Assembly (NCBI GenBank): GCA_028248455.1
Contig: JAOKHV010000001.1
Span: 1-64,000 of the forward strand
Direction of reading: 5' to 3'
Source: Ascidiaceihabitans sp.
GTDB taxonomy: Bacteria > Pseudomonadota > Alphaproteobacteria > Rhodobacterales > Rhodobacteraceae
DNA length: 64,000 nucleotides
How positions within the stretch are numbered: position 1 is the stretch's first letter; each line of letters opens with the position of its first letter. Position numbers and translations under genes: made by a program. Below are positions 46,317 to 48,775 of this stretch, piece after piece. Below the pieces are notes generated by a model, which searched no databases, was not told the DNA's origin, and saw nothing but the letters and a program-made list of their open reading frames with translations.

Positions 46317-46985
46317 TTACGGCTCGACGATAGATGCGTTGTCATAGGCAGCTGTGAAACCAGTCAACGACAAGACAAGCTCAACCTTTTGATCTGGTGC
46401 TAATGCCGGAACGATTGTGACCGTCGCAGCATTGCCGCGTTTGAAGCTTGCTATATCCTCGGATGTAAATCCAACCCGTGCATAGCAACCAACTTGGCTA
46501 CAGAACGAATATGGGTATCTGCGTGCTTTGCCACCATCCACTGAAAGCGTGATCTGTTGTGTTAGCGAAGTTTCAAGCGGCACGACGATTGTTGCGCCTG
46601 CTTTCGCGCGACCACCATCTTTTAAACGAAAGATTGAGACCTCAGCGACGGGTGACCCTTCGCCGTCGTCCATCAGTTGATACATCTGACAAGGGTCTTC
46701 TGTGCCTTCTTCGCCTTTGACGCAGCGCATTTGCCAATCGCCAACTGCTTCCTTGACGTAAAGCTGTCCAACCACTGGTTCTGGTTGCGCTTCTTCACCA
46801 AGGCTTAAGTCTGTTTTGTTTTCTTCAGTTGCTGCAGCTACGCCACCATCAGATTGTGTTTCAACAGCTTCGGCTTCTACGGCTGTTTCAGTTTCTGCCT
46901 GTGCTGTTCCTTGGGCAAAGGTCGCACCAGTGGTCCCAAAAACTAGTGCTGTGCTTAAAAATACTGCATTGCGAAAATTGGTCAT
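46317..46985 (-). CDS. Invasion-associated locus B (IalB) family protein
   Basis: 222 residues from MTNFRNAVFLSTALVFGTTGATFAQ, a signal peptide. After an acidic low-complexity linker (AQAETETAVEAEAVETQSDGG) comes the IalB domain: VGDWQMRCV, DPCQMYQLM, and the paired cysteines of YSFCSQVGCYARVGF. These are periplasmic proteins of alphaproteobacteria with unclear function. An ATG six codons upstream (47003) is the alternative start. Confidence 0.88.
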   Translation of the reverse strand: MTNFRNAVFLSTALVFGTTGATFAQGTAQAETETAVEAEAVETQSDGGVAAATEENKTDLSLGEEAQPEPVVGQLYVKEAVGDWQMRCVKGEEGTEDPCQMYQLMDDGEGSPVAEVSIFRLKDGGRAKAGATIVVPLETSLTQQITLSVDGGKARRYPYSFCSQVGCYARVGFTSEDIASFKRGNAATVTIVPALAPDQKVELVLSLTGFTAAYDNASIVEP

Positions 46986-47120
46986 TAGATATCCATTATT
47001 CATTGCTTTGTGTGCGTTTCTAACATGACAAAATAAGCATGTCAGTTACGAACCGCATCAGACTTTTCTAATTTGGGCAGATTTTTGCTGGTTTAACTGT
47101 TTAAACCAACCGGTTCATAC

Positions 47121-47195
47121 AAAAAAGAAAAGAGAGCTTCGTTGAGCTCTCTTTTCCAATTTATTCTCCCCATCGGACTGAGCCGACTTATGGGG
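47121..47195 (-). ncRNA. Candidate small RNA 1 with an intrinsic terminator
   Basis: Read on the minus strand: a hairpin CCCCAT...ATGGGG (47168-47195, inner CGG/CCG pairing), a short A/T-rich linker, then a 12-bp perfect terminator stem (GAAAAGAGAGCT / AGCTCTCTTTTC, 47127-47156) followed by TTTTTT. Upstream lie TTGACC (47221-47226) and TAGCGT (47198-47203), exactly 17 bp apart. No gene on this strand ends here, so the terminator needs another transcript. The expected length is ~75 nt; the exact start is uncertain because the first hairpin begins very near the predicted start point. Confidence 0.6.
47127..47156 (-). terminator. Strong intrinsic terminator of candidate sRNA 1
   Basis: A 12-bp perfect stem, 6-base loop, and six T on the minus strand. 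It lies upstream of ialB and ends no protein-coding gene. Confidence 0.8.
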
Positions 47196-47197
47196 TG

Positions 47198-47226
47198 ACG
47201 CTACGAAACGATATGAGGTTGGTCAA
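47198..47226 (-). promoter_or_regulatory. Putative promoter of candidate sRNA 1
   Basis: On the minus strand: TTGACC, a 17-bp spacer, TAGCGT. The -35 is near consensus and the -10 is weak. Confidence 0.45.
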
Positions 47227-47274: not shown

Positions 47275-47360
47275 AAAAAGGGCCGTACCCTAGGGCACGG
47301 CCAGTCTTACAGGGAGGAAGTGTTCCAAACCCGAAGGACATTTAGGTTTGGAACAAAAAA
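47275..47360 (-). ncRNA. Candidate small RNA 2 with an anti-Shine-Dalgarno segment
   Basis: Read on the minus strand: a 10-bp hairpin (GTTCCAAACC / GGTTTGGAAC, 47322-47354), a single-stranded CTTCCTCCCT segment (47311-47320), then a terminator hairpin (GGCCGT / ACGGCC, 47281-47302) ending in CTTTTT. The CU-rich segment is complementary to ribosome-binding sites and resembles the CCUCCUCCC-type motifs of stress sRNAs in Rhodobacter. No clear promoter was found; CATATT near 47365 could be a -10. About 85-90 nt. Confidence 0.55.
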
Positions 47361-47431
47361 CAATATGAGCCCCAAAGGTTAAGTTTGTATGGTGGTTACG
47401 AATAAAGATTTTGAACAAAAGGTTAACGCAT

Positions 47432-48775
47432 ATGAAATCCGAACTATTTATTGGCGGCGGAGGCGGCGGCGGCGGTGATTACGCGGTAATGCAAGGCCTT
47501 GGACTAAAGTATGGGAACCGCCATGGTTTGATCGCTGGCGCTACAGGCACGGTTAAAACCGTTACTTTTCACATCCTTGCCTAAGGGTTGTCCAATGCTG
47601 GCGTTCCAGTATTCTTATCGGATGTAAAAGCTGATCTTTCTGGTCTCGCTAAATCAGGCAGTGTGGATCACAAGTTATACGACGCATTCATGAAACGCGC
47701 AGGCATCATCAATATTGCCTTCCGGCTGTCGAACGAAGAAGGTCTACCATTGCTTGATATTAAAGATCTTCAAGCGCTGTTGGTTTAGATCGGAGAACAC
47801 GCCAAAGATCTTTCGCTGCGTTATGGCAATGTCTCGAATTCTTCAATCGGTGCGATCCAGCGCCTTTATTTGTTTTGGAAAACAAGGTGGCAACAACCAG
47901 TATGGTGAACCTGCGCTGGAACTTTCTGACGTCATCCCCAGTCCTATACGCAACATTCCTATTGTGGCTGTTGTCTGAATTGTTTGAAGAACTGCCGGAG
48001 GTTGGCAACCCTGACAAACCAATATTAGTATTCTTCTTTTACGAAGCCCACTTGCTGTTTGAAGACGCACCAAAAGTGCTCGTGAACAAGGTTGAGCAAG
48101 TTGCCCGCCTAATCCGTTCTAAAGGTGTGGGCGTTTATTTTATCACGCAAACCCCTACAAATGTGCCTGACGATATTTTGTGCCAACTTGGAAATTGTTT
48201 TCAACACGCTTTGCGTGCCTTTGCAGCTAAAGACCGCAAAGAACTGCGTCTTGCGGCTGAAACCTACCGCGAGAACCCGTGCTTTGACACCGAAGAAGCC
48301 ATCCGCGAAGTTGGCGTTGGTGAGGCCGTTACCTCCATGCTGCAGAAAAAAGGCGTTCCGGAGATTCTTGAATGCACTTTGATTAGTCCACCGTCGTCTC
48401 AACTTGGTCCGATCATCAAAGTAGAACCCGCAGATATCACGGCAGTCTTGCCGATGGCGGGTAAATACGACGAAACACTTGATCGTAAATCTGCATTTGA
48501 AATTATATCCAAACGGGCAGAAGCCGCAGCGCTTGAAGTTGAACAAGTAGAGGCAAAGGCTGAGGAAGAAGACTATCCATTAATCCGCGAGTTCAACGCA
48601 GGGCGCCGTTACGATGGAACACGTGTTTCACGCTCAACCTCGCGCCCAACCCGTAAACGCAAACCTGACGGTTTGGGTGCGGCAGTGGTGTCTGTTATCT
48701 TGAAGGAACTCAAAAGGGACAACAGGGCGCCGCACTGTGAGCGGTATCTTGGGCAGTCTGTTTAGGGGGCGCTGA
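47432..48775 (+). pseudogene. HerA-like / DUF853 ATPase, decayed
   Basis: The three frames together spell a DUF853 (HerA-like) ATPase: ELFIGGG...GLKYGNRHGLIAGATGT, FLSDVKADLSGLAKSGSVDHKL, ILNIAFRL-like text, LYATFLLWLLSELFEELPEVG and QVARLIRSKGVGVYFITQ. Damage: a TAA in place of Glu at 47582, a TAG in place of Trp near 47786, a frameshift near 47870, loss of the middle of the protein after AFMKRAG and again after LELSD, and a final frameshift near 48712 (original end SGILGSLFRGR). Walker A reads GATGTVKT (Gly to Val), Walker B FFFYEAH (Asp to Tyr). Not functional. Confidence 0.9.

Follow-up and report, generated by a model that had tools for sequence, protein, structure and literature searches.

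What does the gene-free gap between ialB and a herA-like gene of Ascidiaceihabitans sp. encode, and how would its product act? The window, which is the whole stretch of 64,000 nt that was analysed, had been described in an earlier note as holding, in a space without genes, a candidate small RNA (sRNA) with an exposed anti-Shine-Dalgarno (anti-SD) segment. The gap does house this element on the minus strand at 47355-47275 and, as claimed, the element contains no gene of its own. The locus, in which the element is called sRNA1, is laid out as follows.

46317..47003, minus strand: ialB (PF06776, Pfam E 2.5e-39), the syntenic downstream gene
47045-47040, minus strand: promoter-like CTGACA of ialB
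47275..47302, minus strand: intrinsic terminator of sRNA1, a 9-bp stem (47302-47281) followed by CUUUUU to 47275
47303..47320, minus strand: single-stranded linker CUUCCUCCCUGUAAGACU of sRNA1, containing the anti-SD stretch CUUCCUCCCU, the predicted seed
47321..47355, minus strand: 5' hairpin of sRNA1, 12 bp by fold, with loop AAAUGUCCUUC and its conserved UGUCCUYY
47361..47391, minus strand: promoter-like block CATACAAACTTAACCTTTGGGGCTCATATTG upstream of sRNA1, from an alignment of 10 genus members
47432..48765 (start about 47432), plus strand: herA-like helicase gene, the divergent upstream neighbour (PF05872, E 9.3e-96 on 47875-48765)

sRNA1 consists of a hairpin, an 18-nt unpaired linker and a terminator. 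This order is the one that the earlier note gave, and only its hairpin length of 10 bp has to be corrected to 12 bp. The fold energy is -34.8 kcal/mol compared with -19.3 (sd 2.8) for shuffled sequences (z = -5.6), and none of 200 shuffles folded as well. In the upstream block, TTAACC and CATA are invariant or nearly so within the genus, and a block resembling it is also present in other genera (L012, L016-L020). A sigma-70 scan upstream of sRNA1 recognised no -35/-10 pair. Between 47361 and 47425 on the minus strand there are also two copies of TTAACCTTT(T)G, a motif resembling a CtrA half-site, about 40 nt apart and conserved in the genus, and the nearer copy is kept in other genera too.

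By blastn, sRNA1 was matched in 19 of 61 genomes (its own and relatives), including 10 of the 12 genomes in the genus when its own is counted; phage and plasmid sequences gave no blastn match. Homologues occur throughout one family, which is of the Rhodobacteraceae type as judged by synteny with R. sphaeroides. Matches to the sRNA1 model (R1) were obtained in 125 of 150 family genomes, some of them being SorX copies. Nine genus sequences, aligned without fitting to the structure, have 95.2% of their cells paired and changes on both sides in 7 of 21 pairs; slid controls on the same alignment are paired in 29-46%. The 52 distinct family sequences, whose alignment was made with model R1 and so is fitted to the structure, are 95.9% paired and show both-side changes in 18 of the 21 pairs, and their covariation score is 0.614 against 0.209 for shuffled data. 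Divided by element, the changes compensate in 12 of 12 hairpin pairs and 6 of 9 terminator pairs. Between genera the 5' stem is almost wholly replaced with its pairing kept, and the linker ACTTCCTCCCTGTCAGACT is nearly invariant over 63 loci. From the compensatory stem changes together with the nearly invariant linker, we conclude that sRNA1 is an sRNA gene. The earlier claim of an sRNA with an exposed anti-SD segment is therefore well supported by conservation and covariation; the compensatory changes in both stems that it proposed as a check are found in the genus and the family alignments, with the linker kept. A plus-strand reading, in which GGGAGGAAG is followed by GTG and an ORF of 20 codons, was rejected, as the plus strand is the antisense of the compensating stems. 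The hairpin loop (47343-47333, minus strand) carries a second CU-rich motif, UGUCCUCU or UGUCCUUC, kept in most sequences. It is conserved while the surrounding stem changes, and may be a second seed of sRNA1.

To which known RNAs is sRNA1 related? The whole window scanned with Rfam at gathering cut-offs gave only a tRNA, and low-threshold scans were needed for this reason. The best match of sRNA1 is then SorX (RF02784) with 34.1 bits and E 1.3e-6, below the cut-off of 46.6, followed by suhB/MmgR (RF00519) with 20.6 bits and E 0.06, below the cut-off of 41, and SorY with 17.9 bits. SorX is induced by singlet oxygen and represses potA in an Hfq-dependent manner; together with MmgR/SisA, it belongs to the sRNAs through which alphaproteobacteria control their carbon metabolism and their resistance to oxidative stress. 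SorX and sRNA1 have in common, and in the same order, a hairpin, the CUCCCUGU linker and a GGCCG... terminator, while their 5' stems and loops differ. Since 10 of the 12 genus genomes hold a separate match to the SorX model above its cut-off elsewhere, sRNA1 is regarded as a paralogue of SorX, of which a genome contains up to 6 copies. SorX of R. sphaeroides, a member of the same bacterial family, is cut from the ompR-1 3' UTR (PMC6238624); unlike it, sRNA1 has a divergent herA upstream, ialB downstream and a conserved upstream block.

The second group to be compared is alphaR8, whose RNAs consist of a weak hairpin, a 10-nt single-stranded UUUCCUCCCU and then a terminator (PMC12559287). In sRNA1, CUUCCUCCCU agrees with 9 of these 10 bases (one substitution), and it is likewise unpaired with a hairpin before it and a terminator after it. 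On the other hand, the 5' stem of sRNA1 is a strong one of 12 bp, and its neighbours are ialB and herA, whereas alphaR8/MmgR genes are usually linked to the gene for N-formylglutamate amidohydrolase (FGase); paralogues of alphaR8 in Caulobacter also lack the linkage to the FGase gene (PMC12559287). When compared by description, the layout also fits that of RFMSmelC671, a family described in Rhizobiales only, in which a conserved single-stranded CUCCCUGU lies between two highly variable hairpins (PMC3927594). We are highly confident that sRNA1 is an anti-SD sRNA of the SorX/alphaR8 type. Judged from its sequence, it would work as these RNAs do, yet it is a formal member of neither group by Rfam cut-offs. 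SisA represses mRNAs through the alphaR8 core motif (PMC12559287), and because the studies of SisA and SorX show repression of target translation, this is by analogy the likely mode of sRNA1 as well. sRNA1 might be a broad translational regulator, as was suggested earlier.

The earlier note did not include a second minus-strand unit, at about 47191-47120, which lies 80 nt downstream of sRNA1. A sigma-70-type promoter of its own precedes a short hairpin, and a terminator closes the unit. The unit is called sRNA2 here, and its parts are the following.

47198..47226, minus strand: promoter TTGACC-N17-TAGCGT of sRNA2, from the genus alignment
47120..47191, minus strand: sRNA2, a predicted sponge, its 5' end placed from the promoter (+/- 3 nt)
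within 47120..47191, minus strand: hairpin GUCGG-CUCAGU-CCGAU
47179-47166, minus strand: sRNA2 core AGUCCGAUGGGGAG, followed by an A/U-rich spacer
47157-47126, minus strand: terminator with U tail

The promoter, the short hairpin, GGGGAGAA and the terminator are all conserved in the genus alignment, and each of the 63 loci has TTGAC at a distance of 36-46 nt ahead of the hairpin. In other genera the core reads TAAGTCGGCCAGTCCGACAGGGAG, with the consensus AGUCCGACRGGGAG. A distant Rfam match over sRNA2, to Yfr19 (25.9 bits against 70), was set aside because most of it stems from the A/U-rich terminator. When up to 3 mismatches are allowed, the core is present as a single copy in 102 of 150 family genomes, a count biased by this tolerance of only 3 mismatches. 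The reversed control pattern gave 0 matches in the family search and 1 in the class search, while the core itself was found in 0 of 381 genomes outside the family, the class-wide matches being confined to two genomes that belong to the family. We consider it very likely that sRNA2 is a separate, conserved RNA.

The tandem order is conserved as well. In 83 of the 102 genomes with the core, the sRNA1 model has a match just upstream of it, in the same orientation and usually at a distance of 54-130 nt. Inspection adds further tandem cases, R. sphaeroides included, and the tandem is present in 61 inspected loci. Within 120 named records, covering Ruegeria, Roseovarius, Shimia, Jannaschia, Leisingera, Tritonibacter and others, sRNA1 by the strict pattern lies upstream of sRNA2 in 96; the other 23 contain a diverged sRNA1 in a few cases and none recognisable in the rest. 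The flanks follow the same trend: ialB is downstream of the pair in 63 of 63 loci and in 102 of 103 named genomes, and the divergent herA is at the same place in 57 of 63 loci and upstream in 83 of 89 named genomes. Some genomes keep sRNA2 without a recognisable sRNA1 upstream (L203, L213, L222, L269, L270, L283 and others), so that the partner of sRNA2 is not only the adjacent sRNA1, and these genomes offer a natural experiment for finding the RNA on which sRNA2 acts. Furthermore, sRNA2 is present in 73 of the 79 genomes with the strongest SorX match and in none of the 8 without a SorX match, a co-occurrence that may in part reflect the relatedness of the genomes.

The core of sRNA2 is the reverse complement, or nearly so, of the linker and terminator arm of the SorX family, CUCCCUGUYRGACUGGCCG. 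Over 63 tandem pairs, the ungapped complementarity score has a median of 27.6 compared with 14.7 for dinucleotide shuffles, and in 52 of the 63 loci none of 40 shuffles reaches the observed value. We adopted this score because GC-rich terminators made the full-length RNAduplex test noisy; the latter gave a median z of -2.0, with no shuffle as good in 21 of 63 loci. The complementarity also extends to SorX encoded elsewhere. In all 27 genomes tested, sRNA2 pairs with 14-19 of 19 positions of SorX from the same genome, and the whole 13-nt single-stranded CUCCCUGUUGGAC of SorX is paired in nearly all of them, the end base being lost in G131. The full set of 13 linker pairs with SorX is formed by 98 of the 102 sRNA2 cores. 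Among the substituted core cells over the 19 positions, 86 preserve pairing as G-U and 16 disrupt it; most of these 16 are in the hairpin loop or opposite the terminator arm, with 4 at the end base. In the window genome the match is weaker than in its relatives: sRNA1 has GUAAG for GUCAG, and sRNA2 has CUCAG and two G-U pairs. Its ungapped score is 14.9 against 13.1 for shuffles, which is not significant as 4 of 40 shuffles reach 14.9, and its linker duplex of -21.0 kcal/mol is gapped and interrupted. Part of the 19-nt match falls in the terminator stem of sRNA1, where pairing would need unwinding.

Both elements, their conservation, their tandem order and their complementarity are read from the sequence, and from them we infer transcription, pairing in the cell, Hfq dependence, the direction of regulation and the targets. 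The explanation that accounts best for the whole, and which we hold to be probable, is that two trans-acting sRNAs are arranged in tandem, the second sponging SorX-type sRNAs. The unpaired CUUCCUCCCU of sRNA1 would pair with purine-rich ribosome-binding sites of target mRNAs and repress their translation, probably with Hfq. sRNA2, transcribed from its own sigma-70-type promoter, would mimic such sites with its 5' hairpin and the following GGGAG, pair over about 13-19 nt with the sRNA1 linker and with those of SorX copies encoded at other places in the genome, and thereby titrate or destabilise these sRNAs. Taken by itself, the role of sRNA2 as a sponge, or target mimic, of SorX-type sRNAs appears reasonably likely.

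A precedent exists in Caulobacter crescentus, where CrfA sponges SisA-D through the alphaR8 core motif (PMC12559287). CrfA is a purine-rich target mimic complementary to that motif, (PMC12559287), and sRNA2 is predicted to work likewise; the likeness drawn here is one of mode of action, by description. Unlike CrfA, sRNA2 forms a tandem with an sRNA of the matching family and would pair over 13-19 nt, and layout and context differ. The extended, conserved complementarity to the seed that is expected of a CrfA-like sponge was found for sRNA2, in weaker form in the window genome.

The position of the pair suggests another reading, in which sRNA2 is mainly an attenuated 5' leader of ialB, and sRNA1 and SorX act on this leader instead of being sponged. 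Besides the almost constant presence of ialB downstream on the same strand (63/63 and 102/103 loci), R. sphaeroides provides evidence for it. We took genome G086 to be R. sphaeroides because its SorX match at 2,598,225-2,598,299 agrees with the published SorX 5' end at 2,598,224. It contains both SorX (L031) and the sRNA1/sRNA2 locus (L151), the pair lying between ialB and katE, a catalase gene adjoining an oxyR-type regulator. On chromosome 1 of R. sphaeroides 2.4.1, sRNA1 is at about 1,426,700 and sRNA2 at about 1,426,590, both on the minus strand. In R. sphaeroides katE is RSP_2779 (PMC3413700), and RSP_2778 would then be ialB, an assignment made by neighbourhood and not from annotation. 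The published RNA RSs2778/UdsE lies in a 5' UTR, its 5' end coincides with a TSS, it gives a signal on northern blots, and it is reported as 5'-UTR-derived with sRNA-mRNA cotranscripts (PMC8625941). As the number of UdsE is that of RSP_2778, adjoining katE, UdsE is placed at the sRNA1/sRNA2 locus; it is probably one of the two RNAs, sRNA2 being likelier than sRNA1. The reported cotranscripts leave room for a leader role of sRNA2. Against it, sRNA2 is followed by a terminator and then by a conserved CTGACA-type promoter before ialB in 53 of 63 loci, where chance would give the hexamer alone about 0.09 times per locus; sRNA2 has no conserved start codon; the paired region includes neither the start codon nor the SD of ialB; and the complementarity is kept by SorX genes at other places in the genome. 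A leader as the main function is held to be unlikely, though not remote.

The complementarity could also be a relic. In this reading an inverted duplication of a SorX-type linker and terminator gave rise to sRNA2, and its present conservation has a different cause, such as its own hairpin or its own mRNA targets. An inverted copy would be expected to match beyond the linker, and the match does reach the terminator arm (GGCCG); the GUCGG/CCGAC hairpin alone could account for part of the conservation. However, GGGAG lies outside the hairpin and yet is among the most conserved positions, substitutions in GGGAG and in the stem keep the pairing with the linker, and the presence of sRNA2 tracks SorX strength. 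We regard such an origin as a quite improbable account of what is conserved today.

The kinship with the stress-induced CcsR-type sRNAs proposed in the earlier note has very little left in its favour, as only the CU-rich anti-SD character is shared. In CcsR RNAs it is the loops of two stem-loops that bear the anti-SD motif (RS0680a, PMC3927594), and these RNAs share a transcript with ccaF1 (PMC8307010), while sRNA1 has a single hairpin, its motif in the linker, herA and ialB instead of ccaF1 as neighbours, and SorX and suhB as library matches, so that architecture and context refute the assignment. A coding role of sRNA2, for a small leaderless peptide that reads M-T-K-S-A-S-P-T-G-S in some genomes, is hardly credible and was rejected, since an in-frame ATG just upstream of the core in 22 of 63 loci stands against no in-frame start codon in 39 of 63, and variation within the core agrees with RNA pairing and also affects non-synonymous first positions (A/G/C/T in the loop).

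Returning to the sponge reading, we lean towards the view that the Rhodobacteraceae, over about 100 genera, would carry a dedicated SorX/alphaR8 sponge directly behind one silenced member, as a self-contained unit, flanked by herA and ialB, through which the activity of every SorX-type sRNA in the cell is set. No description of such an sRNA/sponge pair in Rhodobacteraceae was found in a library of open-licence papers. If the sponge reading is true, a conserved, position-locked partner RNA would explain how the many SorX copies of a genome are controlled jointly, the unexplained R. sphaeroides RNA UdsE would gain a function, and sponging of the SorX/alphaR8 superfamily would occur in two orders, by RNAs without a demonstrated relation. 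Experimental work on SorX, on its target potA and on UdsE already exists for R. sphaeroides.

Some minor observations were also made. SorX-type tandem duplicates, with two copies within 300 nt, occur at G184:C3:795407-795620 and G033:C183:9526-9823. In the window genome, the herA-like gene is broken by in-frame stops and is open only over 47875-48765. At the predicted ialB promoter of the same genome there is an inverted repeat, TAACTGACATG-N8-GTCATGTTA (47024-47047, minus strand), which is possibly an operator.
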